A stretch of DNA of 64,000 nucleotides from Rhizobium jaguaris (lineage in GTDB: Bacteria > Pseudomonadota > Alphaproteobacteria > Rhizobiales > Rhizobiaceae), in the NCBI RefSeq assembly GCF_003627755.1, contig NZ_CP032694.1, positions 549,501-613,500 of the forward strand. Direction: 5' to 3'. Below the pieces are notes generated by a model. It had not been told where the DNA came from. It saw only the letters and a list, made by a program, of their open reading frames with translations, and did not search any database. Shown here piece after piece: positions 6,701 to 19,803 of the stretch (positions within the stretch are counted from its first letter, which is position 1; each line of letters opens with the position of its first letter). A program made the translations under genes and the position numbers.

Positions 6701-7574
6701 AGGCGATCAGGCTCATCAGATTGGCGGCAACCGGCGAGCGCTGCGCCTTGAGGATGGCGAGCCCAAGCCGTGCCACGAGTGGCGGCCCGTCGATCGGGCG
6801 ATAGGCGACGCCGTCAAGCTTGATCTGGGCAATCGAGGCGGGAACGATGGAGACCCCGAGATTGGCGGCGACGAGATTGACGACGGAAGGAATCTGCGGC
6901 GCTTCCTGTGTCACCACCAATTCGAAACCGGCATCGCGGCAAGCGGCGACGATATCGTCATAGAGACTTAAACCCACCATGCGCGGGAAGAGAATGAAGG
7001 GCTCGTTCGCCAGGGCGGCAACCGGCACGCGATCCTTCGTTGCAAGCGGATGATTGGCGGGCAGCGCGATCAGCATCGGCTCGTCGGCGAAGCGCTTGAG
7101 CCGGACGTCGCGCGGGTCTTCGAGGCCGGGGCGAATGAAGACGGCGTCGATCTCGCCACGCATCAGCCGTTCCATCAGCGCATTGGTGTTCATCTCGGTC
7201 AGCGATAGCCGCACCTCCGGCCAGCGATTGCGGAATTCGCGAATGGTAGCGGTGACGATCGTGTTGAAGGCCGAGGATGCAGTGAAGCCGAGTGCCAGGC
7301 GGCCGATCTCGCCGCGATTGGCACGCTGGGCGGCAAGCTTCGCTTTTTCCGCCGCATCCACGGCGGCCTTGGCTTCCGCAAGAAAAGCCTGACCTGCCGC
7401 CGTCAGCTCCGCCCCATGCGGAACACGGTGAAACAGCATAGCGCCTACTTCGTTTTCGAGGTCGCGGATCTGCTGGCTGAGCGGCGGCTGGCCGATGCCG
7501 AGCTTGGCAGCGGCACGCGTGAAGTTTCCCGCTTCCGCCAATGCCAGAAAATAGCGGATATGACGGAGCTCCAT
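6699..7574 (-). CDS. LysR-family transcriptional regulator (BenM/CatR-like)
   Basis: 291 residues starting MELRHIRYFLALAEAGNFTRAA, the standard N-terminus of this LysR branch, with helix-turn-helix (about 18-60) and an effector domain to the end. A TTG four codons upstream is open, but GGAGAT sits correctly for the ATG at 7574 and would lie inside the longer form. It is divergent from the MFS exporter at 7672 with 97 bp between, including the quasi-palindrome TCCATATATTGGA (7607-7619), so it is probably the exporter's regulator. Its stop codon overlaps a RIME-like repeat. Confidence 0.9.
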   Translation of the reverse strand: MELRHIRYFLALAEAGNFTRAAAKLGIGQPPLSQQIRDLENEVGAMLFHRVPHGAELTAAGQAFLAEAKAAVDAAEKAKLAAQRANRGEIGRLALGFTASSAFNTIVTATIREFRNRWPEVRLSLTEMNTNALMERLMRGEIDAVFIRPGLEDPRDVRLKRFADEPMLIALPANHPLATKDRVPVAALANEPFILFPRMVGLSLYDDIVAACRDAGFELVVTQEAPQIPSVVNLVAANLGVSIVPASIAQIKLDGVAYRPIDGPPLVARLGLAILKAQRSPVAANLMSLIA

Positions 7575-7671
7575 CGTTATCTCCAAAACCTATTGAGATC
7601 ACCTGTTCCATATATTGGACTAATGAGGTGGGCCTGGCTAGATTTGACGGCAAGAAAGGTTGTGTGTCCCC

Positions 7672-8955
7672 ATGTCCCGCGCCGTGCAAAAGCAAGAGCT
7701 CACCGTCTCGGAAGCCTCCTCCCGCCCCGAATTGAAGCTTGTCGAAAGCGAGCCAAAGCTTGAGCTTCGCCAATTTCTGACGCGGGGTACGCCCGCGTTC
7801 AGGCGAGCAACCATTGCGCTGTTCCTCTCCGGCTTTGCGACTTTTTCCCTGCTTTATTGCGTGCAGCCGCTGATGCCGATCTTTTCGGATGATTTTGGCG
7901 TGACGCCGGCTGCGAGCTCGCTGTCTCTGTCGCTTTCGACCGGCTTCCTCGCCTTTGCGATCTTCTGCGCCGCTGCCGTTTCCGAAAATCTCGGTCGACG
8001 CAGCCTGATGTTCTTTTCGCTGCTGGGTGCCGCTCTCTGTACGCTCGCCTGCGCCATTGCACCGAACTGGCAGATGCTGCTGGTCTTCCGTTCGCTCGAG
8101 GGCTTCCTGCTCGGCGGCGTGCCGGCGGTAGCCATGACCTATCTTGCGGAAGAGATTGATCCGCGTGGCCTTGGCGGCGCCATGGGCCTCTACATTGCCG
8201 GCAACGCCTTCGGCGGCATGGCCGGTCGTGTCGTGACGGGCACGATCGCGGAATTCTTTAGCTGGCGTCCGGCGCTTGCTGCCGTCGGCGTCCTAGGGCT
8301 GATTGCCGCCACCGGCTTCCTGCTTCTACTACCGCCGTCGCGCAATTTCACGCCACGCAAGGGGTTCGACGTCGCTTTTCACGTCAGGGCCTGGGCGGGT
8401 CACTTCCGCAACCCGGCGCTGCCGTTGCTTTTCGCCATCGGTTTCCTGGTCATGGGCTCCTTCGTCACGGTCTATAACTATGCCGGCTTCCGGCTGGTTG
8501 CCGATCCCTATGATCTCAGCCAGACCGAACTCGGCCTGATCTTTACCGCCTATCTCTTTGGCATCGTCGCCTCCTGGCTCGCTGGCCTGCTCGGCGACCG
8601 TATCGGCCATTTCGTCGTGCTGCCCGCCGGCGTGCTGGTCGCCGCGCTCGGTGCGGCGATTACGCTCGCTGCACCTCTGCCATTGGTCATTCTCGGCATC
8701 GTCTTGGTGACCATCGGCTTCTTCGTTACTCATTCCGTCGCCAGTGCCTTGGTCGGGCGCCTCGCCCGGGGGGCCAAAGGCCATGCCTCGTCGCTCTATC
8801 TTCTGGCCTACTACCTCGGCTCCAGCATTGCCGGCTCCGTCGGTGGTTATTTCTGGCTTGCCGACGGCTGGTCAGCCGTGGTTACCTTCATTCTCGCCAT
8901 GCTGGCCTTCTGCCTCGTGGCCGCGTTCGGTGTGGCCAGGCTGGCGCGACGCTGA
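7672..8955 (+). CDS. MFS transporter, YnfM/AraJ-like drug:H+ antiporter-1 family
   Basis: 427 residues from ATG 7672 (a GTG 12 bases earlier is possible). About 40 polar N-terminal residues are followed by 12 predicted membrane helices beginning ATIALFLSGFATFSLLYCVQPLMP. Segments such as MTYLAEEI, GLYIAGNAFGGMAGR and GHASSLYLLAYYLGSSIAGSVGG closely follow E. coli YnfM. Members are proton-driven inner-membrane exporters whose substrates are mostly unknown. It is followed after 22 bp by a VOC protein, likely co-transcribed, and is divergent from a LysR gene. No defect seen. Confidence 0.92.
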   Translation: MSRAVQKQELTVSEASSRPELKLVESEPKLELRQFLTRGTPAFRRATIALFLSGFATFSLLYCVQPLMPIFSDDFGVTPAASSLSLSLSTGFLAFAIFCAAAVSENLGRRSLMFFSLLGAALCTLACAIAPNWQMLLVFRSLEGFLLGGVPAVAMTYLAEEIDPRGLGGAMGLYIAGNAFGGMAGRVVTGTIAEFFSWRPALAAVGVLGLIAATGFLLLLPPSRNFTPRKGFDVAFHVRAWAGHFRNPALPLLFAIGFLVMGSFVTVYNYAGFRLVADPYDLSQTELGLIFTAYLFGIVASWLAGLLGDRIGHFVVLPAGVLVAALGAAITLAAPLPLVILGIVLVTIGFFVTHSVASALVGRLARGAKGHASSLYLLAYYLGSSIAGSVGGYFWLADGWSAVVTFILAMLAFCLVAAFGVARLARR

Positions 8956-8962
8956 GCAATGA

Positions 8963-9364
<402 letters not shown>

Positions 9365-9421
9365 GATTTCAGGCGCCGCATCGTCGGCGTTCTGCTCCCA
9401 AAGTAGGCCAGCCTAGGCCAC

Positions 9422-9479
9422 TTGACATGCATCGGTGTCAGCATTATTAAACCGATAAGTTAATTAACAATACGGTTTA
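9422..9479 (+). promoter_or_regulatory. Sigma-70-type promoter with overlapping ArsR-like inverted repeat
   Basis: TTGACA (9422-9427), 17 bases, TATTAA (9445-9450). Overlapping the -10 and start region are TAAACCG (9448-9454) and CGGTTTA (9473-9479), a 7-bp inverted repeat with an 18-bp AT-rich spacer. It lies seven bases before the ArsR-family start codon, so autorepression is the natural reading. Confidence 0.7.
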
Positions 9480-9486
9480 GAACAGC

Positions 9487-9828
9487 ATGGACACGTTGAG
9501 CATGACCCTGTCCGCTCTTGCCGATCCGACCCGTCGGGCGATCCTGGCGCGACTCGCAACCGGCGAAGCTTCCGTTTCCGAGCTGGCGGAACCCTTCGAC
9601 ATCTCGCTGGTTGCCGTTTCCAAGCATCTGAAGGTGCTGGAGAAAGCCGGCCTGATCTCAAAGGGCAGGGAAGCGCAGTGGCGTCCCTGCCGCTTGGAAA
9701 CCAAACCGCTCATGCAGGTGGATGACTGGCTGGAAAGCTATCGCCAGTTCTGGAACGAAAATCTCGATCGCCTGGAAGCATACGCCGCAGCATTGCAACA
9801 AGGAGGAGCTGATGACCGCAGCAAGTGA
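9487..9828 (+). CDS. ArsR-family transcriptional regulator
   Basis: 113 residues: a single winged helix-turn-helix (LSALADPTRRAILARLATGEASVSELAEPFDISLVAVSKHLKVLEKAGLI, about 7-55). It has no ELCVCDL-type cysteine metal site, so this is the non-metal subgroup that regularly precedes SRPBCC (AHSA1) genes. Its last 17 bases overlap the next gene, implying translational coupling. A promoter and inverted repeat immediately upstream suggest autoregulation. Confidence 0.93.
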   Translation: MDTLSMTLSALADPTRRAILARLATGEASVSELAEPFDISLVAVSKHLKVLEKAGLISKGREAQWRPCRLETKPLMQVDDWLESYRQFWNENLDRLEAYAAALQQGGADDRSK

Positions 9829-10294
9829 GATCGAGAGGCCGCGCCCATTGCGCGAAATTGTGCTGACACGCGACATTGCTGCGCCGCGCACATTGCTGTT
9901 TCGCCTCTGGACTGAGCCGCAGCATCTGATGCGTTGGTGGGGTCCGCAGAACATGACCGCACCATCCGTCTCCGTCGATCTGCGCGAAGGCGGTGCCTGG
10001 CGGCACTGCATTCTCAACCCGGATGGCAGGGAATATTGGAGCCACGGGCGCTATCTGGAAATCGTCCCGCCCGAACGTCTCGTCTTTACCTTCTCCTGGG
10101 AAGGTCAGGACAATAAGCCCGGCCACCCGATGCAAGTTACTGTGGAATTTCATGAGCTTGGCGAGAAGACGCGTCTCGTCTTCCGCAAGGCCGAGCTCCC
10201 CGACGACACCGAGTTGAAGTTGCAGACCGGCGGTTGGGAGCAAGCACTCGACAAATATGCCGCCTATGCGGAAGCAGCCTCAAGGGAAGGATGA
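9812..10294 (+). CDS. SRPBCC (AHSA1/Aha1-like) domain protein
   Basis: 160 residues from the ATG at 9812, which has AGGAGG eight bases upstream; the frame is open further upstream, inside the ArsR gene, but without a better start. One START-like domain: IVLTRDIAAPRTLLFRLWTEPQHLMRWWGP at the N-terminus and a C-terminal GGWEQALDKYAAY helix. These hydrophobic-cavity proteins are found in operons with ArsR regulators; ligand unknown. ATGA overlap or near-contact with the GFA gene supports a three-gene operon. Confidence 0.9.
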   Translation: MTAASEIERPRPLREIVLTRDIAAPRTLLFRLWTEPQHLMRWWGPQNMTAPSVSVDLREGGAWRHCILNPDGREYWSHGRYLEIVPPERLVFTFSWEGQDNKPGHPMQVTVEFHELGEKTRLVFRKAELPDDTELKLQTGGWEQALDKYAAYAEAASREG

Positions 10295-10299
10295 GAGTG

Positions 10300-10701
10300 A
10301 TGAAGAAGACCTATCATGGAAGCTGCCATTGCGGCGCAGTCAGCTACGAAGCCGATCTCGACCTGCAGGGCGGCACCTTCAAATGCAACTGCTCGATTTG
10401 CAAGAAGAAACGCAATTGGCTGGCGGTCGCCACGCCGGCGGATTTCCGCCTGATCTCGGGCGAGGACAGCATCCGCGAATACCAGTTTGGTCGGCGCGTC
10501 CTGCATCATCTGTTCTGCCAGAATTGCGGCATCAGCTCCTTCAATTGGGGTGAAAATCCCGCGCGCGGCAAGTTCTATGCGATCAGCATCAGCTGTCTGG
10601 ACGATGCCACCGACGAGGAACTCGCCGCCCTTCCGGTCGGCTATTTCGACGGCCGTGATGATCGTTTCGATCGTGCGCCGGAGGAAACGCGTTATCTCTA
10701 A
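10300..10701 (+). CDS. GFA-family (glutathione-dependent formaldehyde-activating enzyme-like) zinc protein
   Basis: 133 residues from ATG 10300; GGAAGG is nine bases upstream, better than for the ATG at 10291 that overlaps the previous stop. CHCGAV near 8, CNCSICKKK near 30 and CQNCGI near 75 supply the paired zinc cysteines of the GFA/CENP-V fold. The family includes a glutathione-formaldehyde adduct enzyme, but most members have no proven activity. Third gene of the ArsR-SRPBCC-GFA operon; its end overlaps convergent vapC by four bases. Confidence 0.88.
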   Translation: MKKTYHGSCHCGAVSYEADLDLQGGTFKCNCSICKKKRNWLAVATPADFRLISGEDSIREYQFGRRVLHHLFCQNCGISSFNWGENPARGKFYAISISCLDDATDEELAALPVGYFDGRDDRFDRAPEETRYL

Positions 10702-11102
10702 CTGCTCGGCAAGGACTCCCAGTCCTCGAAACGCAACTGGTGAATAAGCTGAAATTCCCTAACGTTGTGCGTAATGAGCATCAGATCGCGGGCAACGGCC
10801 TGACCCGCGATCAAAACGTCATAGGCACCGATCGGTGTGCCGAGTGAAGCGAGGTTGGCGCGAATTTCGCCAGCCATACGGGCATCCGCCTTGTCGAAAT
10901 CCAGCGTCTCGAATTGCAATGCCTCAACACGTGCAAGGTTCTCGGCAACACGCTGGCCTTTATAGACGCGGTAAAACAATTCGTGCGCGACAACGGCTGG
11001 AATAGCGAAATCCTGCGGCTTGTGTTTACGGATCTCGGCCACAAAACCGGGATGACCTTTCATCAGGGCGATGACGGCATTACTATCCAGCAGGTATTTC
11101 AC
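10698..11102 (-). CDS. vapC: PIN-domain ribonuclease toxin of a type II toxin-antitoxin pair
   Basis: 134 residues. LLDSNAVIALM holds the first PIN-domain Asp (about residue 6), a Glu lies near 41 (VVAHELFYR), and IGAYDVLIAGQAV plus LITHNVREF give the later acidic/Asn residues. VapC toxins cleave tRNA or rRNA in a metal-dependent way. The ATG overlaps the vapB stop (ATGA), the usual TA coupling. The sequence appears intact. Confidence 0.92.
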   Translation of the reverse strand: MKYLLDSNAVIALMKGHPGFVAEIRKHKPQDFAIPAVVAHELFYRVYKGQRVAENLARVEALQFETLDFDKADARMAGEIRANLASLGTPIGAYDVLIAGQAVARDLMLITHNVREFQLIHQLRFEDWESLPSS

Positions 11103-11341
11103 TTGAAGATATCCAGCTCAGGGCTTTGCTGCTCTGCAGGCTGTTCGGTCGCGGCCTCTGCGAAGTCCTGATCGACGGGGCCTGTGACGGTCTCCAGCCA
11201 ATCCCAATCTTCGACGATCGGCTCCAGAATGATTGCTTTTCCCTGCCGTCGGATGCGCACTTCTTCGCCGTCGAGACGGAATTCCTTTGGCAAACGCACG
11301 GCCTGCGAGCGGCCGGACCAGAAGATTTTTGCGGTGTCCAT
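11099..11341 (-). CDS. vapB: AbrB/MazE-type antitoxin
   Basis: 80 residues from the ATG at 11341. TAKIFWSGRSQAVRLPKEFRLDGEEVRIRR is the swapped-hairpin AbrB DNA-binding module (about 2-32), followed by WDWLETVTGP and an acidic, glutamine-rich tail expected to bind and block the PIN toxin. AAGGA lies eight bases before this start; a frame extending 13 codons further up lacks a site. It autoregulates vapBC in known systems, and a palindrome sits in the promoter just upstream. Confidence 0.9.
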   Translation of the reverse strand: MDTAKIFWSGRSQAVRLPKEFRLDGEEVRIRRQGKAIILEPIVEDWDWLETVTGPVDQDFAEAATEQPAEQQSPELDIFK

Positions 11342-11368
11342 GCCATAATTCCTTTGAGATATGACATT

Positions 11369-11397
11369 GATATATAGCATCCGCAGGATGATTTCAA
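11369..11397 (-). promoter_or_regulatory. vapBC promoter with operator between -35 and -10
   Basis: Minus strand: TTGAAA (11397-11392), 17 bases, TATATC (11374-11369). Between the boxes is CATCC-TGC-GGATG (11390-11378), a short palindrome placed so that a bound VapBC complex would block RNA polymerase. Confidence 0.6.
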
Positions 11398-11407
11398 TTC
11401 GAGGACG

Positions 11408-12088
11408 TCACGGCCCTGTCTTTGTTGCCAGCCAGATGACGTGGCGCGCGCCGCTCTTGCCATTGGCGCGCGTATTGACCACCTCGGCGGCAAAGCCGCT
11501 GTCGCGCAGGCGTCTTGTGAAGCGATCGTCAGGTCCCGAAGACCAGACGGCGAGGACGCCTCCCGGGCGCAATGCATCGCGCGCCGCCTTGAGGCCCTGA
11601 TAGTCATAGAGGCCGTCATTGGCCTCGGACGTGATGCCATCGGGGCCATTGTCGACATCTAACAGAATGGCGTCATAGGTCGTCTTGGTGGAGCGGATGA
11701 GCGGACGCACATCGCCTTCATGAACGGCGACGCGCGGGTCGTCGAGGCAGCCGTCGAAGACCGTTGCCATCGGCCCGCGTGCCCAGGCGACGACAGCCGG
11801 AACCAGTTCGGCAACCGTAACCTTGGCATCCGCACCGAGTTCTCCGAGCGCCGCGCGCAACGTAAAGCCCATGCCGAGGCCGCCGATTAGTATATGCGGT
11901 GCCTTCTGACCTTTGATCTTCTCGCAGGAGAGCGTCGCAAGCGCGCGTTCCGAGCCGCTGAGGCGGCTGTTCATCAGCTCGTTGGTGCCGAGCATGATGG
12001 AAAACTCCTGACCGCGCTGCTTCAGTCGCAACTCGCCGCCGCCGGGGATTTTCGCAGTGTCGAGCAAGGTCCAGGGGATCACGGGCAA
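11408..12088 (-). CDS. Spermidine-synthase-like / class I SAM-dependent methyltransferase-fold protein
   Basis: 226 residues. HILIGGLGMGFTLRAAL (about 66-82) is the glycine-rich nucleotide loop, VTVAELVPAVVAWAR the acidic strand-2 motif, and YDAILLDVDNGPDG the strand-4 motif seen in spermidine synthase-like proteins. It is shorter than true spermidine synthases and lacks the N-terminal beta domain, so aminopropyl transfer is not assured. A truncated RIME-like repeat begins seven bases upstream of the start codon and probably forms part of its promoter region. No obvious operon partner. Confidence 0.8.
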   Translation of the reverse strand: MPVIPWTLLDTAKIPGGGELRLKQRGQEFSIMLGTNELMNSRLSGSERALATLSCEKIKGQKAPHILIGGLGMGFTLRAALGELGADAKVTVAELVPAVVAWARGPMATVFDGCLDDPRVAVHEGDVRPLIRSTKTTYDAILLDVDNGPDGITSEANDGLYDYQGLKAARDALRPGGVLAVWSSGPDDRFTRRLRDSGFAAEVVNTRANGKSGARHVIWLATKTGP

Positions 12089-12094
12089 CTCTCC

Positions 12095-12151
12095 AGAGCA
12101 ATTCCAGGAAAAGTGCGTAGTGGTTTTCCGCCCGGAATTGCGTGTAAAACA
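12095..12151. repeat. RIME-like intergenic mosaic repeat, copy 2 (5' half only)
   Basis: AGAGCAATTCCAGG, then AAAAGTGCG, GGTTTTCCG and GGAATTGCGT match the first half of copies at 6601 and 45103. The second palindrome (TAGAGCGGG...CCGCTCT) is absent. It lies between two minus-strand genes. Confidence 0.7.
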
Positions 12152-12207
12152 GGTCGTTTCGAATTGCCCGGACCATAGTCTTTCAGAGCTGGCAAGAACA
12201 GACGTGC

Positions 12208-13869
12208 TTATCCGAGACGGATATAGGGCACATCCTTCTTCGCAACTTCGTCCAGCGCTTCCTCATAGCCGGCATCGGCATAGCGCATGACGCCAAGCGC
12301 CGTGTCGTTGGTCAGGGCATGATCGAGCCGTTCGTCGGCGGCGGGCGTGCCGTCGGCGACCACGGTAACGCCGCAGCTCGTCATATAGCCCGCATAGCCG
12401 CCGCCGCCGGAATGGACGACGACGAGATCAGCCATCGACGAGCAGAGCATCATGGCATCGATCAGCGGCCAGTCGGCAATCGCGTCGGAGCCGTCCTTCA
12501 TGCGTTCCGTCATGATGTTTGGATGTGCCATGGCGCCGGCATCGAGGTGATCACGCGAGAAGGCGATCGGGCCATTGAGTTCGCCGCTCGCGACCAGCTC
12601 GTTGACCCTGCGTGCCAGTTCCGTGCGCTCGCCATGGCCAAGCCAGGCGATGCGTGCCGGCAGGCCTTCGAAGGGCACATGCTCGCGGGCGAGGCGTATC
12701 CAGTTGGTGATGATCTTGTTGTCGGGGAACATCTCGAGCAGCAGATCGTCAATGCGGGCGATATCGCTTTCCTCGCCGGAAAGAGCCATCCAGCGGAACG
12801 GACCGATGGCGCGGGCAAACAGCGGCCGCAGATAGGCCTCGGTGAAGATCGGGATGTCGAAGGCGTTGGCGACGCCTCCCTCCTTCGCCTGGGTGCGGAT
12901 CAGGTTGCCGTTGTCGAAAACTTCGGACCCCTTTTTCTGGAAGTCGAGCATGGCCTTCACATGCTCGACGATCGAAGCGCGGCTTGCTGCCATTAGCTGA
13001 CCCTGGCCATCATCGCGCAAATCCTTGACCTGTTGTAGGTTCATGCCCTTCGGCACATAGCCATAGACGAGATCGTGGGCCGAGGTCTGGTCGGTGACGA
13101 TATCGGGCACGATGCCGCGCCGGGCGATCTCGGGATAGATCTCCGCCGCATTGCCGACGAGGCCGACGGAAAGCGCGCTCTTTTCCTTCACCGCGGCATC
13201 GATCATCGCAAGGGCTGAATCGATGTCCGGCGCGATCTCTTGGAGATAGCCGATCTGCTGGCGCTTTTTCGCCCGCTCCGCATCGATATCGACGCAGAGG
13301 ATGGCGGCACCCGCCATGCGGCCAGCCAGAGGCTGCGCGCCGCCCATGCCGCCGAGGCCGGCGGTCAGCACGAAACGACCGAGGAGATCGCCGCCGAATC
13401 GGCGCTCGGCGATGCGCATGAAGATTTCATAGGTGCCCTGAATGACGCCCTGGCTGCCAATATATTGCCATGCGCCGGCGGTAAGCCCACCCCAACAGAT
13501 CAAGCCCTTGCGCTGCAGCTCATAAAAGACTTCTGCTTTCGCCCATTGCCCGACGATGTTGCAGTTCGCCATGATCACCAGCGGCGCTTTCGCATGCGTG
13601 CGCACCAGTCCGATCGGCTTGCCGGATTGGATCAGCAGCGTCTGATCCTCTTCCATTTCGGTTAGCGCCTTGACGATGCCTTTATGCGCAGCCCAGTTGC
13701 GCGCCGCCTTGCCGAGGGCTGCGTAGACGACGAGATTGTCCGGGTCCTCGCCGACCGACAGTACGTTTTCCAGCAGGCGCAGCAGCGCCTCCTGCCGCCA
13801 ACCCTTGGCACGCAGCTCCGGGCCGCCCGGAATGGGGAATTTCGGGTGACGTGGATTGGCTTTCGGCAT
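12208..13869 (-). CDS. Urocanate hydratase family protein, probable thiourocanate (or substituted urocanate) hydratase
   Basis: 553 residues, full length for the family. LIQSGKPIGLVRTHAKAP, YIGSQGVIQGTYE and GRFVLTAGLGGMGGAQPLA are the N-terminal and NAD-binding signatures; IAFSRDHLDAG and RMKDGSDAIADWPL come from the C-terminal half. Urocanases add water across the imidazole-acrylate using NAD+ as electrophile. A clear difference from classical HutU is VHSGGGGYAGYMTSCG where HutU has LHHGGGVGMGFSQHSG near the active site, so substrate specificity has probably changed. Last gene of a six-gene operon without hutI or hutG; in context I infer hydration of thiourocanate to a thiohydantoin-propionate. 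It could still be annotated hutU by similarity. Confidence 0.85.
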   Translation of the reverse strand: MPKANPRHPKFPIPGGPELRAKGWRQEALLRLLENVLSVGEDPDNLVVYAALGKAARNWAAHKGIVKALTEMEEDQTLLIQSGKPIGLVRTHAKAPLVIMANCNIVGQWAKAEVFYELQRKGLICWGGLTAGAWQYIGSQGVIQGTYEIFMRIAERRFGGDLLGRFVLTAGLGGMGGAQPLAGRMAGAAILCVDIDAERAKKRQQIGYLQEIAPDIDSALAMIDAAVKEKSALSVGLVGNAAEIYPEIARRGIVPDIVTDQTSAHDLVYGYVPKGMNLQQVKDLRDDGQGQLMAASRASIVEHVKAMLDFQKKGSEVFDNGNLIRTQAKEGGVANAFDIPIFTEAYLRPLFARAIGPFRWMALSGEESDIARIDDLLLEMFPDNKIITNWIRLAREHVPFEGLPARIAWLGHGERTELARRVNELVASGELNGPIAFSRDHLDAGAMAHPNIMTERMKDGSDAIADWPLIDAMMLCSSMADLVVVHSGGGGYAGYMTSCGVTVVADGTPAADERLDHALTNDTALGVMRYADAGYEEALDEVAKKDVPYIRLG

Positions 13870-13909
13870 GGAATTCCCTTCCCTGGTGGATCGTTGTTTC
13901 GGCGGCCGG

Positions 13910-14239
13910 CTATTTTGGCGGGAGGCCTTCGACGAAATTCAGCGCGGCCAAAAGCAGCCGCTTGCGCAGCATGTCATTGCCATAAGCCTCCGGCCCGGCG
14001 CGCACCCATCCCTGCATCTCGCGGCTGCCATGCAGCATCGGTTTGATATCAGGCTGCTCCAGCGCCCAGGCGTCATTGCCTTTGCCGAGCCGGATCAGCA
14101 TCCCATCTTCGCGGGCGCCGCAAAGCAGGTTGCCGTTGAGCAGAACGGCCCAGCCCCCGAACATCGTTTTTTCGCTGAGGCCCGGCCGTTGCCCGATTTC
14201 TTCTTTCAGCAATTCCTCAAGACCTGCGTCGCGTGCCAT
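13910..14239 (-). CDS. TfoX N-terminal domain protein
   Basis: 109 residues: one TfoX/Sxy N-terminal domain (KTMFGGWAVLLNGNLLCGAREDGMLIRLG near 25-52). There is no C-terminal TfoX domain, so it is not the full competence regulator. It lies 18 bp after the DUF917 gene and 40 bp before the urocanase-like gene, on the same strand, hence in the operon. Single-domain TfoX_N proteins are widespread in Rhizobiales but uncharacterised; a role in regulating or assembling these enzymes is only a guess. Confidence 0.85.
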   Translation of the reverse strand: MARDAGLEELLKEEIGQRPGLSEKTMFGGWAVLLNGNLLCGAREDGMLIRLGKGNDAWALEQPDIKPMLHGSREMQGWVRAGPEAYGNDMLRKRLLLAALNFVEGLPPK

Positions 14240-14257
14240 TGTCTTCTCCTGGTGCTG

Positions 14258-15358
14258 TCAGCCCTTCTTGCCGGCCAGCGCGTATTTGGCGATCTCGATA
14301 CCCATCGCCTTTTCGACAGACGGATAGACGGTCGGATCCAGCACGCTGGCCGAAAGCGGAATGATATCCATCGGCACATGCAGGATGAAGACGTGCATGC
14401 CCTCATGTAGTTGACCGACGCTCAAGGGCTCGCCCTCCGGCGACAGCGTGGTGATGACCGAGGGGAATGTTGCCAGGCGCTTACCGTTGGCATTCTCGAT
14501 CGCCATATATTCGTTCATCACATGCATGGTGACGGCCTTCTCGCCAGAACCCACCGCGATCGTGCCGATGTCGAAGGCTTCCTTGGTATAGACCACATCC
14601 TTTTTGCCGATGGTGCCTTCGGCGAGGATATGGCCGCCGGTGGTCTTACAGATGGCGTCTATGACGGCGCTGCCACCCTTCTTTTCCGCCTCGATGATCG
14701 CTTCGCCGAGCGACAGCGCCATGGAGATGCCGCCAAGGGCGGCATGCGTGCGAACATAGGAAGCGCGCAGCGGATTCCGGCAGGAGGCGATGAAGCCGCC
14801 GGATTGGTCGGAGGCGGCGCGCAGGATCGGCGATATCTTCGCCGTTGCGCCCTTCACGACCAGCTCGATATAGCGATTCTCGGCGCGGTTGCCGCCGACA
14901 GCGGTCTGGATCATCTGCTCAGGCGAACCGGCCATACCGATCGAGCCCATATCGCCCGTCGGGTGCGCGCGGATGTCGCCGACGGCATCCACGACCTTTG
15001 TTCCGAGAATGGCCGACGGCAGCCAGCCGTTCAGCGTCGAGGACCGGCCGTTCTGGCCGATGATCAGGCCGGAGAGCTTTTCGCCGAGCTCGTCTTGCAG
15101 CAGCTGCACGGCCTTGACGTAATCGATGCCCTGCATCTCCCAGGGCGTGGTGGACGCCGGCGCGCCGATGGCGGCTGCCGTCGCGATCCAGTCGTTGTCA
15201 TTGAGTTCGTCGATCGACACCAGCTCCGGCTTGCCGACATTGACGGCAGCATAGCCGAGCATGCGCCCATGATCGGCCCAGCCGCCGCCGCCCGCCGCAT
15301 AAACCGAGCCGCCCTTGACGGCCGCTTCCACATCCTTGGCAACGAGTACGCGTCCCAT
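14258..15358 (-). CDS. DUF917 family protein, probable thiohydantoin desulfurase
   Basis: 366 residues covering the whole DUF917 family, which to my recollection has been renamed S-methyl-thiohydantoin desulfurase. The N-terminus has a glycine-rich YAAGGGGWADHGRMLGYAAV; HPTGDMGSIGMAG is near 130 and CKTTGGHILAEGTIG near 240. It lies three bases after the carbamoylase stop, so the two are tightly coupled. Inferred role: removal of the 2-thio group from the thiohydantoin-propionate made by the urocanase homologue, yielding hydantoin-5-propionate for the hydantoinase. The link rests on family and operon context, not on a catalytic residue I can identify. Confidence 0.85.
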   Translation of the reverse strand: MGRVLVAKDVEAAVKGGSVYAAGGGGWADHGRMLGYAAVNVGKPELVSIDELNDNDWIATAAAIGAPASTTPWEMQGIDYVKAVQLLQDELGEKLSGLIIGQNGRSSTLNGWLPSAILGTKVVDAVGDIRAHPTGDMGSIGMAGSPEQMIQTAVGGNRAENRYIELVVKGATAKISPILRAASDQSGGFIASCRNPLRASYVRTHAALGGISMALSLGEAIIEAEKKGGSAVIDAICKTTGGHILAEGTIGKKDVVYTKEAFDIGTIAVGSGEKAVTMHVMNEYMAIENANGKRLATFPSVITTLSPEGEPLSVGQLHEGMHVFILHVPMDIIPLSASVLDPTVYPSVEKAMGIEIAKYALAGKKG

Positions 15359-15361
15359 TGG

Positions 15362-16636
15362 CTACCCCCGGTTCTGTTTCAGGTTCTTGTCCATGTCGCG
15401 CACTGCTTCGAAGAGCACTGCGGCGCCCATGGCGATGTCGTCATTCTCGGCCCATTCCTCGGCGCAATGGCTGCGGCCTTCTTTGCAGGGTACAAAGATC
15501 ATGGCGGCAGGCGCGACTTTGGCGATCCAGGCCGTGTCGTGGCCGGCGCCGGAGGCCATGCGGCGATGCTTTGCGCCGACTGTATCGCAGGCGCGTTCAA
15601 GCGTCTCGAGCAGGATCGGAGCGCCCGGCGTCGGAAAATTGTCGGAGACGCGCACGGGCGACTTGATGGTCACTCCGTAAGCTTCGGCTATCTGTTGCAC
15701 TGCACCGTCGATCCAGGCCAGGAACTCTTCCATGTCGTTGCGGATTTCGGCGCGGCCGTCGATCAGCAGCACGACTTTGGACGGTACGACATTGGCGGCA
15801 TTCGGCTCGATGCGGAATTCGCCCACGGTGGCGGCGAAATGGCCCGGCGTCTTTGCCTGCTCGGCCGCTCGGCTCCGGATGTCGAGCACGAGCTGCGAGG
15901 CGGCCACCAGCGCATCCGCACGCCGATCCATCGGCGTCGTGCCAGCATGGTCGGCGCGGCCTTCGACGGTGATTTCGATGCGGGTGATGCCGGCGATCGC
16001 GGTGACGATGCCAATATCCTTATGCTCCGCTTCGAGCACTGGACCCTGCTCGATGTGCAGCTCCAGGAATCCTGCGAGATCCGGGCGCTTCTGGGCAAGC
16101 AGCACCGAAGGGTCGCCGCCGACCTCGGTAATGCCTTGGAAAAGCGTGCGGTCACCACTGGTGCGGCTGAGCCACGCCTCGGGTATCTGCCCCGTCATGC
16201 CGCGGCTGCCGATGCAGGATACGCCGAAGATACTGACTTCCTCGGCCAGGAAATCGACGATCTCCAGATCATGATCGAGTTCGATGCCGCGATCCTTCAA
16301 GGAACGCGCGACTTCGAGCGCCGCAATTGTGCCGGCGATGCCGTCGAACCGGCCGCCATCGGGAACGGTGTCGGAATGCGAGCCGACAAGGATCGTGCCG
16401 AGGTCGGGCTTGGCGCCTGCGCGCCGGCCGATCAGGTTGCCACCGGCATCGATGCGGGTTTCCAACCCGGCCGCCTTCATGCGCGCCTCGATGTAAGCGC
16501 GGCCTTCCAGAAACAGGGGCGAGAAAGCGCGTCGCGTCCAGGGGTGATCAGGCTCGGTGATCCCGGCAAGCGCGTCGATATCTTCGGCGATACGATCGGC
16601 GTTGACGGGCAGATTATGGCGTTTTGATTGGTTCAT
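15362..16636 (-). CDS. M20-family N-carbamoyl-L-amino acid hydrolase (hydantoinase/carbamoylase family)
   Basis: 424 residues. GSHSDTVPDGGRFDGIAG (about 85-102) gives metal ligands His87 and Asp98; the FLAEEVSIFGVSCIGSRG segment has the Glu-Glu base/ligand pair; FLELHIEQGP and a C-terminal GAGHDTAWIA supply further His ligands. The lid domain (about 210-330) has the GRADHAGTTPMDRRADAL signature. Family members hydrolyse N-carbamoyl amino acids, allantoate or ureidoglycine. Its start overlaps the hydantoinase stop by one base (TAATG). Next to a hydantoinase and urocanase homologue the likely substrate is N-carbamoyl-glutamate, giving glutamate, CO2 and ammonia. Allantoate amidohydrolase is the main alternative, but no allantoin genes are nearby. 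Confidence 0.9.
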   Translation of the reverse strand: MNQSKRHNLPVNADRIAEDIDALAGITEPDHPWTRRAFSPLFLEGRAYIEARMKAAGLETRIDAGGNLIGRRAGAKPDLGTILVGSHSDTVPDGGRFDGIAGTIAALEVARSLKDRGIELDHDLEIVDFLAEEVSIFGVSCIGSRGMTGQIPEAWLSRTSGDRTLFQGITEVGGDPSVLLAQKRPDLAGFLELHIEQGPVLEAEHKDIGIVTAIAGITRIEITVEGRADHAGTTPMDRRADALVAASQLVLDIRSRAAEQAKTPGHFAATVGEFRIEPNAANVVPSKVVLLIDGRAEIRNDMEEFLAWIDGAVQQIAEAYGVTIKSPVRVSDNFPTPGAPILLETLERACDTVGAKHRRMASGAGHDTAWIAKVAPAAMIFVPCKEGRSHCAEEWAENDDIAMGAAVLFEAVRDMDKNLKQNRG

Positions 16637-18018
16637 TATAGGGCCTCTCCGGCAATGATCTGGCGAGGAAGCGGGCGGACGAATCTACCGTTGCCCGCCT
16701 CGGCCAGCACTTTGTTTCCGTCGGCAATCTGCTTGCCTCTCAGATAGGCGGCGGATACCGTCCAGGGCAGGCGGATGCCGTTATAAGGGCTCCAGCCGAC
16801 GACGTTGTTGCCGCTCGAAGCGGCGTCATAGACGGTTTCGCGTGGCTCCAGCACGACGATGTCGGCGTCCTTGCCCGGCGTCAGCGCACCCTTGATATGG
16901 TCGAGGCGGAAATGCTTGGCAGGATTCTCCGCCATGAGCTTCGCCGCCCAGGTGAGCGGCACGCCTCGTTCCAATGCGCCCTTGACGAAGAGCGGCACCA
17001 TGACTTCCAGCCCCGGCACGCCCGACGCATTCGCCAGCATGTCCGGATTGGTCTTGCGGTTTTCAGACCAACTGACATGATCGGTCGAAACCAGCCAGAC
17101 ATTGCCTTCCGCCACCTTGCGCCACAGCGTCTCCACTTCGGCGCGCGGGCGGATCGGCGGATTGATCTTCGCCTTGCCGCCAAGGCGCTTCACGTCGTTT
17201 TCCTCGTCCAGCGTCAGATAGTGGATGCAGCACTCCACCGTCGCCTCGAAGCCGTCGCGACGGTAGGCGCGGGCAATATCGTAGCCGCGGCCGAGCGAGC
17301 AATGCACCACATGCGCCGGACAGCCGGTATCCGCGCCGGTCTCGAAGATCGTGTGCATGGCAAGCAGCTCGGTGATCGGCGGCCGCGACAGGCCGTGCGC
17401 GCGGTAATCGGTGATGCCGCTGGCCTTGACCTCATCCATATAGGTCCGAACCGCTTCGTCATCCTCATTGTGGACGCCGGCCGTCAGTCCCGTCGGTGCG
17501 ATCGCGGCGAAGCAGGCGTCCAGCAGGGCGGGCGGGATGCGCGGGAAGCGCTTCGGGTCCGTGCCGAAAGTCGAGAATTTGAAGGCGGCGACGCCGGCCT
17601 CCACCATTTCGCGGATACGCGCGGGACCTTCCTCCGGGTCGACCGTGCCATAAAGCGCGAAGTCGACGCGCGCCTGTGGCGAGGCATGGTCGATCTTCTT
17701 CTTCACGGCTGCCGCCGAACAGACGAGATTGCCCTCGTCATAGGGCATGTCGACGATGGTGGTGACGCCGCCCGCCGCTGCCGAGCGCGTCGACCAGATG
17801 AAGTCCTCCTGATCCCTCTGGGAGAGGGAATGCACCTGTGCGTCGATCGCGCCGGGCAGGATCAGTGCTTTTCCGAGGAGATGCCGTTCGCGCGCTGCGG
17901 GTGGGGTGCCGACACCGATCTGGACGATCTTGCCGTCACGCACGGCGACATAACCCTCCTCCACGATACGTTCGGGCAGAACCACAGTGCCCTGCAGAAC
18001 GAGATCGAAGTCAGCCAT
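16636..18018 (-). CDS. Cyclic amidohydrolase (hydantoinase/dihydropyrimidinase/allantoinase family), probable hydantoin-5-propionate hydrolase
   Basis: 460 residues from ATG 18018, which has GGAGA six bases upstream; the frame is open 39 codons further but that part reads into the lyase gene. The metal-dependent TIM-barrel fold is clear: carboxylatable Lys147 in AAFKFS, His in GVHNEDDE, His in HVVHCSLG and Asp in STDHVSW. The first metal motif, normally DxHxH, reads Asp59-Ala-Gln61-Val-His63, so one histidine ligand is replaced by Gln. The composite beta-sandwich ends (DLVLQG, VVLEPRETV) are intact. It overlaps the carbamoylase start by one base and follows the lyase by 25 bp. Inferred reaction: opening of hydantoin-propionate to N-carbamoyl-glutamate. 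Confidence 0.88.
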   Translation of the reverse strand: MADFDLVLQGTVVLPERIVEEGYVAVRDGKIVQIGVGTPPAARERHLLGKALILPGAIDAQVHSLSQRDQEDFIWSTRSAAAGGVTTIVDMPYDEGNLVCSAAAVKKKIDHASPQARVDFALYGTVDPEEGPARIREMVEAGVAAFKFSTFGTDPKRFPRIPPALLDACFAAIAPTGLTAGVHNEDDEAVRTYMDEVKASGITDYRAHGLSRPPITELLAMHTIFETGADTGCPAHVVHCSLGRGYDIARAYRRDGFEATVECCIHYLTLDEENDVKRLGGKAKINPPIRPRAEVETLWRKVAEGNVWLVSTDHVSWSENRKTNPDMLANASGVPGLEVMVPLFVKGALERGVPLTWAAKLMAENPAKHFRLDHIKGALTPGKDADIVVLEPRETVYDAASSGNNVVGWSPYNGIRLPWTVSAAYLRGKQIADGNKVLAEAGNGRFVRPLPRQIIAGEAL

Positions 18019-18043
18019 ATCCAGTCTCCGTTCACCCGTTTGT

Positions 18044-19627
18044 TCAGATCGCGACAGCGTCGCGATAAAGCCGCTCTTCGACCCGCTCCAGCGAGCCGAG
18101 GGCGAAGAAATCATCGTAGGCGAGGATCGGCGCATGGGCGATCATCTCGGACACGAAAGCCTCGGAGCCCAGTTCCTCTTCGATGGCCTCGACCTCAGCC
18201 GAAAGCGGCCGGTCGACCACATAGAAGTCTGCATGTTTGCGCACGACGTCGTAGAGCATGCGAGCCACGCCTTCCGGCTTGTCGCCGAGAATGTCGATCG
18301 CCTGCGCCGAGAGTAGAGCTTCCAGCGCTGCAAGGCGTTTCAGAGCACGCATCTGCCGCTCGAAACGTTCGATGACCAGCGGCAGGAAAGCAGCTTCGTC
18401 CTCCAGGCCGGCGGCCACCACCAGCGACTGCGCCGATACCGGATTGGACATGGACAGCACCCGCGAGAAGATTTCGCCGGCAAGCTTGATGATCGGGCCG
18501 AAGCCGGTGGCGATTTTGCCTTCGGGCACCAGATTGACCGGCAGGCCGCGCCGCTGGCCATTGCCGAGCAGGACGCAGCGATTGAAGGCATTGCGCGCTG
18601 CATGGGCCATGCAGATGACCGCAGCCTCGAGCAGGATCGTCACATCGAGCGGCAGAGAGCCACCTGACGTCATGACGCGACCGTCGACGATGACGGGATT
18701 GTCGTCTGAGCGACCGGTCGCCGCCAGGATCTTGTGGCCGGCGGCCAGGAGATTCTCGATCACCGCGCCGAAGACCTGGCCGATCATGCGTAGGCTCAGG
18801 GGGTCCTGCACATGCGTCGCGACGGGCCATTGCCATTCTTCCGAGGCCTTGCAGAGCCAAGCGCCAATCAGGGCTTCACGCGCCGTGCCAACGTGGCGCA
18901 CAGCATGCCAGGGATCACGCGAGGAACCGAGGGCGCCAGCCGCCATCATGCCGGTCGCGAGCAGCACCCGGATAGAAGAGGCGGCATTGCGGGTCGTCTC
19001 GGCTGCCGCCGCGAAACTGACGGCATTGACGCTGAGCGAGGCCAGGCTGTCGCGCGGCAGCATCCTCACCGGACTGATGCCGGCCGCTGCAAACGCATCG
19101 GCCGCCTGCATGCGCCGGCCGTGATAGACGGCCTCGCCGACCCCAGTCAGCACTGCACCGATCTGGCCCATGAGGCCGATATCGGCGCAGCCGATCGAAC
19201 CGGTGCGGCGGACGACGGGAATGACATCCGTATGCAGCAGCTGAAGATAGGCGTCGATCAGCTCCGGCGAGCAGCCGACCTGGCCGGTCAGCGCCGTATT
19301 GACGCGGATCGCCATGGCGTTGCGTACGATGGACATGGAAAAAGGCGCGCCGGTGCCGAAATGGTGTGCACGCACCAGACCGAGATTGAAGGTGTCGAGG
19401 TCTTCTGGCGACCATTCCACATCCTTCATAGCTCCGACGCCGGTGGTCGAGCCATAGACGGGCATGCCGGACTGGATCGTGCTTTCAAGAACCTCGCGCG
19501 CCGTGCGCACACGCGCCAGGCCAGTTTCCGATGCCGTGGGCATCACGACACCAGCGCCGATCCGCACCAGATCGCTGAAGCCCAAGGGCTGTCCGGTGAG
19601 TTCGATGCTGGCTTTCTGACGCTCCAT
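18044..19627 (-). CDS. Aromatic amino acid lyase-fold protein lacking the MIO triad, probable ergothionase-type lyase
   Basis: 527 residues, the size of histidine ammonia-lyase. Family landmarks: VYGSTTGVG (Tyr58, like HAL Tyr53), HVQDPLSLR (273-280) and TGRSDDNPVI. The cofactor-forming site differs: HAL has GSVGASGDLAPL, this protein has GSIGCADIGLMG (143-154), with no Ala-Ser-Gly, so 4-methylideneimidazole-5-one cannot form. The Tyr of HAL's QDPYSLR is Leu277. A lyase without MIO fits ergothionase, which eliminates trimethylamine from ergothioneine without needing that electrophile. AAGGAGAA sits eight bases before the ATG. First gene of the operon; a 16-bp palindrome lies upstream. Histidine itself is an unlikely substrate. 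Confidence 0.85.
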   Translation of the reverse strand: MERQKASIELTGQPLGFSDLVRIGAGVVMPTASETGLARVRTAREVLESTIQSGMPVYGSTTGVGAMKDVEWSPEDLDTFNLGLVRAHHFGTGAPFSMSIVRNAMAIRVNTALTGQVGCSPELIDAYLQLLHTDVIPVVRRTGSIGCADIGLMGQIGAVLTGVGEAVYHGRRMQAADAFAAAGISPVRMLPRDSLASLSVNAVSFAAAAETTRNAASSIRVLLATGMMAAGALGSSRDPWHAVRHVGTAREALIGAWLCKASEEWQWPVATHVQDPLSLRMIGQVFGAVIENLLAAGHKILAATGRSDDNPVIVDGRVMTSGGSLPLDVTILLEAAVICMAHAARNAFNRCVLLGNGQRRGLPVNLVPEGKIATGFGPIIKLAGEIFSRVLSMSNPVSAQSLVVAAGLEDEAAFLPLVIERFERQMRALKRLAALEALLSAQAIDILGDKPEGVARMLYDVVRKHADFYVVDRPLSAEVEAIEEELGSEAFVSEMIAHAPILAYDDFFALGSLERVEERLYRDAVAI

Positions 19628-19671
19628 ATTGCTGTTCTCCTTTCCTGCAAGGCTATGCGAGCATCATTGAT

Positions 19672-19687
19672 TTTGGGATATCCCAAA
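19672..19687. promoter_or_regulatory. Perfect 16-bp palindrome upstream of the catabolic operon
   Basis: TTTGGGATATCCCAAA, fully symmetric, centred about 52 bp upstream of the lyase start codon. GntR (FCD or HutC) and LacI-type repressors bind sites of this shape. No such regulator is encoded in the window, so it would act from elsewhere. Confidence 0.6.
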
Positions 19688-19803
19688 TGACGAACACCTG
19701 CCGCGCCGCATATGCAAAACCTGCCGCAGCGCCTTCAATGACGCACTACAACCGATAGGGGGAGATATACATTTCCATTAAACGGCATAGCCGTAGAAAT
19801 AGG

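Follow-up and report, generated by a model that had tools for sequence, protein, structure and literature searches.

Gene content of the ert operon

We analysed a window of 64,000 nucleotides from Rhizobium jaguaris (contig NZ_CP032694.1, positions 549,501 to 613,500 of the forward strand), focusing on a group of six genes, here called the ert operon, and on its predicted regulation. The genes lie on the minus strand, run from window position 19627 to 12208 and are separated by gaps of 25, -1, 3, 18 and 40 bp in order (Table 1). Their products belong to the Pfam families Lyase_aromatic, Amidohydro_1, Peptidase_M20, S-Me-THD (formerly DUF917), TfoX_N and Urocanase. The located open reading frames and the Pfam family of each product bear out a first-pass annotation, made from the sequence alone, which had placed six same-strand genes here with gaps of -1 to 40 bp. 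For ErtD the start was set at the ATG at 18018, the listed open reading frame of 499 residues beginning further upstream. The stretch singled out in that annotation ends at 19687, where a perfect 16-bp palindrome located upstream of the lyase gene also ends.

The five core genes occur together in 79 of 80 related loci, the 80th being truncated at the end of its contig, and 71 loci have all six genes. Because the core genes are co-located in this way and the five enzymes have median ratios of nonsynonymous to synonymous substitution (dN/dS) of 0.04-0.12 between the related loci and the window, the cluster is not a chance assembly. Among the nearest named relatives, Rhizobium species of the R. 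tropici/lusitanum group, the desulfurase is 95-98% identical.

Table 1. Genes and sites of the ert operon, in window coordinates
Feature	Position	Strand	Evidence
Lyase of the histidine ammonia-lyase family lacking the 4-methylideneimidazole-5-one (MIO) group, predicted ergothionase (ergothioneine trimethylamine-lyase)	18044..19627	-	PF00221; best PDB and Foldseek match 6s7j; residues
ErtD, hydantoin-5-propionate amidohydrolase	16636..18018	-	NF058538, 788.3 bits (cut-off 600)
ErtE, N-carbamyl-L-glutamate amidohydrolase	15362..16636	-	NF058540, 632.9 bits (cut-off 520)
Thiohydantoin desulfurase (DUF917, now S-Me-THD)	14258..15358	-	NF058529, 603.9 bits (cut-off 440)
TfoX_N-domain protein, accessory	13910..14239	-	PF04993, 32.4 bits (cut-off 30.1)
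Thiourocanate hydratase (urocanase family)	12208..13869	-	NF058530, 1061.2 bits (cut-off 930); best PDB match 7ned
Predicted operator TGTTC-N9-GATATCCC, LysR-type T-N11-A box	19675..19696	-	Conserved in related ert promoters
Perfect 16-bp palindrome TTTGGGATATCCCAAA, overlapping the operator	19672..19687	n/a	Read in the sequence upstream of the lyase gene

Assignment of the pathway

The decision on the substrate was based on the equivalog models of NCBIfam 20.0 with their curated cut-offs. The hydratase, the desulfurase, ErtD and ErtE all passed the cut-off of the corresponding model; the M20 protein scored higher still with the general Zn-dependent hydrolase model NF009531 (799.9 bits) than with the ErtE model. 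All five pathway functions sit in one operon, four of them recognised at equivalog level and the fifth, the lyase, from sequence features and its nearest fold only. These four models support the route that the annotation had named first, from ergothioneine to glutamate in five steps, and the DUF917 protein, whose family was linked there to thiohydantoin desulfurization, exceeds the thiohydantoin desulfurase cut-off and stays under the S-methyl one. On these family assignments, the operon very probably encodes the complete catabolism of ergothioneine to glutamate, a pathway already known.

We infer the individual reactions from the family models and residues. The lyase would eliminate trimethylamine from ergothioneine to yield thiourocanate, the quaternary amine leaving without an MIO group, and the urocanase homologue would hydrate thiourocanate to the thiohydantoin of propionate. 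The DUF917 protein would then desulfurate this thiohydantoin to hydantoin-5-propionate and sulfide, ErtD would open the hydantoin ring to give N-carbamyl-glutamate, and ErtE would split the latter into glutamate, ammonia and CO2. Ergothioneine, an antioxidant of fungi, may plausibly serve the bacterium as a source of carbon, nitrogen and sulfur. For ergothioneine biosynthesis, the EgtD model had no match over its cut-off in the genome (32.9 bits versus 290.9), and EgtB was not searched for.

The operon resembles the known five-step system in combining ergothionase, thiourocanate hydratase, thiohydantoin desulfurase, ErtD and ErtE; it differs in that the lyase has diverged from the Treponema denticola enzyme, that most of the Rhizobium operons sampled carry a TfoX_N gene and that the candidate regulator is unlinked in Rhizobium. 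Reconstitution of the five-step pathway in vitro has reportedly been achieved, and the pathway can be regarded as established because NCBIfam 20.0 carries names for its enzymes. That several bacteria break ergothioneine down to trimethylamine and thiourocanate, and on to glutamate, is old knowledge, described in PMC7653990, with references from 1957-1963, and also in PMC13405746.

The lyase is probably of the ergothionase type

The best PDB sequence match of the lyase was T. denticola ergothionase (6s7j/6s7q, E 1.9e-48). A Foldseek search with its AlphaFold model (mean predicted local distance difference test score, pLDDT, 86; below 50 at MIO-loop residues 145-149) likewise placed 6s7j first (template modelling score, TM, 0.85; root-mean-square deviation, rmsd, about 2.5), with Pseudomonas putida histidine ammonia-lyase (HAL) as the next-best match (TM 0.83-0.84, rmsd about 3.4). 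The modelled fold ranks ergothionase top but alone does not exclude HAL, and the residues discriminate better.

Sequence alignment revealed that, where the genome's own HutH has the MIO triplet ASG, the lyase has just the two residues CA (EG in T. denticola ergothionase), in agreement with the earlier description of the enzyme as MIO-less. In a 10-row alignment, seven ert-linked lyases of this type have CA or CG instead of ASG; these seven and the T. denticola enzyme share K68 and K381 (lyase numbering), which are Ala and Val in the own HutH. An 18-row alignment of rows that we chose (the window lyase, 14 of 120 listed relatives and three distant loci) showed no variation at Y58, K68, K381 and E409 (18/18). 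Residues of this kind are said, in a 2019 paper on the ergothionase structure, to be essential. Two points speak against the ergothionase assignment: the lyase matched no curated ergothionase model in the NCBIfam search, and in the structural alignment it shares just 26% identity with the characterised ergothionase.

Several other loci differ in their lyase. In L126 (G086:C3:70000-88000, 6814-13000), a thiourocanate hydratase gene and a desulfurase gene adjoin a lyase gene with an MIO triplet (GSVGASGD); the G086 lyase, the tenth row of the 10-row alignment, has the ASG triplet and the first ergothionase lysine only. The locus also carries a sulfide:quinone-reductase-like gene, below cut-off, and neither ErtD nor ErtE was matched within 18 kb; this cluster possibly represents an entry from a primary-amine thiohistidine. 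Loci L234, L236 and L242, from three other genera, have ErtD, ErtE, desulfurase and hydratase together, and a search of the 12 kb fetched gave no lyase relative at E 1e-6; a GntR-FCD regulator lies near the ert genes of L242. The ert set of L233 (G603:C5:351000-363000) is complete; its lyase is strongly diverged (28%), and no relative of LysR was found in the locus.

Distinction from histidine utilization and from other substrates

The first-pass annotation warned that the operon is easily mistaken for hut, and the warning is justified. The named relatives of the lyase among the 120 matches listed are annotated as 'histidine ammonia-lyase' or 'aromatic amino acid (ammonia-)lyase', and such operons can be mistaken for hut because the urocanase homologue also exceeds the older hutU cut-off (697.9 versus 375 bits). 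An excerpt of PMC13405746 likewise reports that BLAST with a Burkholderia ergothionase gave only names of the HAL, phenylalanine ammonia-lyase or tyrosine ammonia-lyase (HAL/PAL/TAL) kind.

Like a hut operon, the cluster joins a HAL-family lyase with a urocanase. A second hut, hydantoin or pyrimidine pathway could be read from the hutU score and from the likeness of the amidohydrolase to allantoinase and dihydropyrimidinase models, although it stays below their cut-offs. The lyase, however, lacks the MIO triplet, the ErtD and ErtE models are exceeded, and a separate hut cluster at about 4.26 Mb of contig 1 holds a higher-scoring hutU (976.5 bits), a HutH-like lyase, hutI, hutF and a GntR-UTRA regulator, so that a pathway of this kind has a negligible probability here. 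The ert operon itself is without hutI and hutF. The earlier statement that hutI and hutG are absent holds for the operon, neither HutI nor HutG being among the leading matches of its six proteins in Pfam and NCBIfam (best 25 families for two of them); in the genome as a whole hutI is present in the separate cluster, and hutG was not searched for genome-wide. For a histidine or methylhistidine route, one would expect an ammonia-lyase of the MIO kind to be required. With the triplet absent and the ergothioneine models passed, we rejected the histidine reading or regard it as unlikely, and the same holds for methylhistidine, which the annotation had offered as a sister option.

Its other sister option, S-methyl-ergothioneine, would be degraded via S-methyl-thiourocanate with release of methanethiol. 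That branch uses the same protein families and logic, its models score strongly here, and some genomes (for example G086, at locus L109) have an extra, more distant desulfurase next to a urocanase homologue besides the bona fide pair. Both curated S-methyl models nevertheless remain below cut-off (741.3 bits versus 880 for the hydratase with NF058531; 278.9 versus 450 for the desulfurase with NF058532), while the thiol models pass (1061.2 and 603.9), making this substrate very improbable and leading us to set the option aside. The second, distant desulfurase of G086 (G086:C6:271947-273014; L109, L127) scores 261 bits, below cut-off, and lies beside a urocanase homologue; this pair perhaps belongs to the S-methyl branch.

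Oxidised ergothioneine, the sulfonate, was considered as the physiological substrate as well, in which case sulfite rather than sulfide would be released. The ergothionase of T. denticola also accepts ergothioneine sulfonate, and a 2022 study reportedly reconstituted a bacterial pathway for it. That study is cited by title, for Agrobacterium radiobacter, a Rhizobium relative, in an excerpt of PMC13405746. The operon, however, encodes a thiohydantoin desulfurase that exceeds its cut-off and that should be unneeded if sulfite leaves unaided, and we give the sulfonate a slim chance of being the substrate.

A conserved, predicted operator ahead of the lyase gene

A predicted operator, TGTTC-N9-GATATCCC, is located about 50 bp before the start of the lyase gene. 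It is exact in 73 of the 78 related ert promoters with enough sequence upstream of the lyase, and the remaining 5 each differ from it at one position. The consensus block across these 78 loci is TGTTCG-NC-ATTTGGGATATCCC. A form of the operator with 18 fixed bases has a single exact match in the 8.03-Mb genome (four contigs), namely the ert site, and TGGGATATCCCA with at most one mismatch occurs at 13 places, one of them exact. Eleven bases separate the second T of TGTTC from the first A of GATAT; this T-N11-A spacing is the classical arrangement of LysR-type sites. The block also precedes ert in the distant genome G015. The palindrome itself was rejected as the conserved element: its last bases vary between loci, and the core TTTGGGATATCCC is conserved.

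A LysR-type gene is linked to ert in other genera

A LysR-type gene at contig 1:716144-717397, 147 kb from ert, encodes two HTH_1 stretches and a LysR_substrate domain, and it is divergent from an OsmF-type transporter with a shared site between them. Domain content, divergent promoter and T-N11-A site are those of LysR-type regulators; the two HTH_1 stretches per chain set it apart from ordinary members. In G262 and G040, full-length relatives with two HTH_1 stretches are encoded divergently from the ert lyase gene. The gene is also divergent from ert in Metarhizobium and in two Brucella loci; among the 80 related loci it lies within the fetched ert locus in three, none of them Rhizobium.

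We then examined a fresh test set, the ert loci of 15 other genera of the family with a desulfurase over cut-off, one genome each. In 10/15 of these loci the LysR gene and the first ert gene are divergent, with a partial match in L241; L239, among the 10, and the Metarhizobium locus L072 are probably the same record. In the LysR-linked intergenic regions (these 10 loci plus G262 and G040), one ert-ward TGGGATAT occurs in 12/12, against 0.033 expected overall from base composition. At fixed spacing, the first half-site is yGTTC in L235, L237, L238, L239, L244 and G040, TGTAC in L245 and L246, TGTCC in G262, TGTTT in L241 and CGTAT in L240 and L243. The site has the form TGTTC-N9-GATATCCC in Rhizobium and a looser form, yGTnn-N9-GATAT, elsewhere.

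The OsmF-type transporter as candidate uptake system

The transporter beside the LysR gene is a four-gene OsmF-type ATP-binding cassette (ABC) system (contig 1, 711817-715709), 57-69% identical to that of G262. Its counterpart lies inside the ert operon in G262 and G040, and in ert loci of two other genera. About 350 bp upstream of the transporter, TGTTCTCAAAAAAAGATATCCC repeats the two blocks of the ert operator at the same spacing. This site came from a half-site scan around two OsmF homologues, that is, at chosen places, and the genome-wide operator searches miss it because it has AAAAA in place of the TTTGG half. It is exact in 30/30 closest orthologous loci and in 17/17 more distant loci of our choosing, and is thus supported by sequence conservation.

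The system resembles the EgtU ergothioneine ABC transporter in being of the betaine type (OpuAC binding protein); it differs in that the ert-linked binding protein, tested for G262, is OsmF-type (424 bits to the nearest such chain) and not EgtUC-like (at most 97 bits to EgtUC). Ergothioneine perhaps enters through this transporter, which we regard as the leading uptake candidate, a prediction with somewhat better than even prospects. Co-occurrence of transporter and ert failed as a sign of such a role and counts against it: the binding protein is present in 147/148 genus genomes, those lacking ert included, and is therefore not ert-specific; the transporter must have another use too. At G000:C2:836001-836903 (L151) there is another OsmF-type binding-protein gene, which shares 84% identity with the first and has no transporter relatives found within the 12 kb fetched; solo copies are also present in G300 and G334.

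The LysR gene follows ert rather than the transporter

Co-occurrence of the LysR gene was surveyed in all 17 genus genomes without a desulfurase over cut-off and in 17 of the 131 others, the latter chosen by us and with binding proteins 83-86% identical to that of this genome. Beside the binding-protein gene, the LysR gene and the exact site are present in 17/17 ert-plus genomes, and neither was found there in 17/17 ert-lacking genomes, G421 offering just 340 bp upstream. Genome-wide at E 1e-40, the LysR protein was recovered in 17/17 ert-plus and 0/17 ert-lacking genomes, with at most 53 candidates scored per genome. All four transporter genes are present in 16/17 ert-lacking genomes, the 17th, G408, being cut by a contig end. 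Conversely, G332 has ert, the LysR gene (89%) and both sites, and no close binding protein was found there, only permease remnants beside the LysR gene. Since ert-lacking genomes keep the transporter without LysR and G332 shows the reverse, the LysR gene follows ert and not the neighbouring transporter. Paralogy was rejected as the cause of the LysR-less transporters, the solo paralogues of three genomes forming a branch of their own and the ert-lacking genomes keeping the transporter itself, not the solo copy.

We therefore propose the LysR-type gene as the likely ert regulator, a prediction from linkage, site conservation and co-occurrence. The protein would bind TGTTC-N9-GATATCCC upstream of the lyase gene and activate ert, with ergothioneine or an intermediate as the signal. 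Certain observations tell against this role. The first half-site departs from yGTTC in 6/12 linked loci, the LysR gene was not found in 5/15 other-genus loci, and G086 gave no full-length LysR match; in G015 the LysR gene is unlinked to ert and has nearby just a one-mismatch form of the loose pattern. In addition, the binding-protein trees need only two changes to explain the ert-plus and ert-lacking pattern (sign test 0.5), which leaves as few as two events behind the co-occurrence.

A different protein might instead bind the site upstream of ert, with control by the LysR protein confined to its own gene and the genes next to it; that the LysR protein binds upstream of ert is a prediction, and in Rhizobium its gene is not adjacent to ert. 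Such a division is unlikely, given that all 12 of the examined loci with adjacent LysR and ert genes have a matching site in between, that the site precedes ert also where the two are apart, and that LysR tracks ert rather than the transporter. The proposed regulator and its operator are the new, testable part of this analysis, the pathway itself being known but mislabelled in this group; the first-pass annotation had noted neither the regulator nor the recurring operator nor the transporter. The open-access papers searched pointed to neither an ert regulator nor an OsmF-type ergothioneine transporter.

Taking regulator and transporter together, we consider it reasonably likely that alphaproteobacteria possess an ergothioneine regulon, in which a LysR-type protein with two HTH stretches senses ergothioneine or an intermediate at a T-N11-A box and switches on ert and an importing OsmF transporter. 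In Rhizobium, regulator and transporter would have become separated from ert with the shared site kept. With a regulator, an operator and an uptake system predicted, the trait can be put to the test, and these parts would offer a starting point for an ergothioneine biosensor.

Distribution of the operon and the TfoX_N gene

With a desulfurase over cut-off as the marker for the ert operon, and this genome counted in each sample, ert was detected in 131/148 genus genomes, 40/297 genomes drawn from the family and 5/289 drawn from the class. Ergothioneine use therefore appears to be a near-core trait in this group of bacteria, which live in soil and in association with plants.

The TfoX_N gene is present in 72/80 related loci. 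It was not found in the other 8, nor in L084-L087 of four distant genomes, and it lies between the desulfurase and hydratase genes in 2/15 other-genus loci, one of the 15, L241, being cut before that place. A sixth pathway enzyme was rejected on this distribution. The median dN/dS of the gene is 0.17, versus 0.04-0.12 for the five enzymes. Its structure model (mean pLDDT 87) matched no solved structure at E <=0.001, the nearest being VP1028, a DUF1801 protein and YjbR. The gene is a constrained but dispensable passenger, accessory to the pathway. It sits between desulfurase and hydratase in three genera, and a Cys at residue 40 is invariant in 16 aligned copies.

Two further genes of the window lie downstream of ert on the same strand: the product of one (11408-12088) matches the Spermine_synth domain, and the other (10698-11102) encodes a PIN-domain protein.

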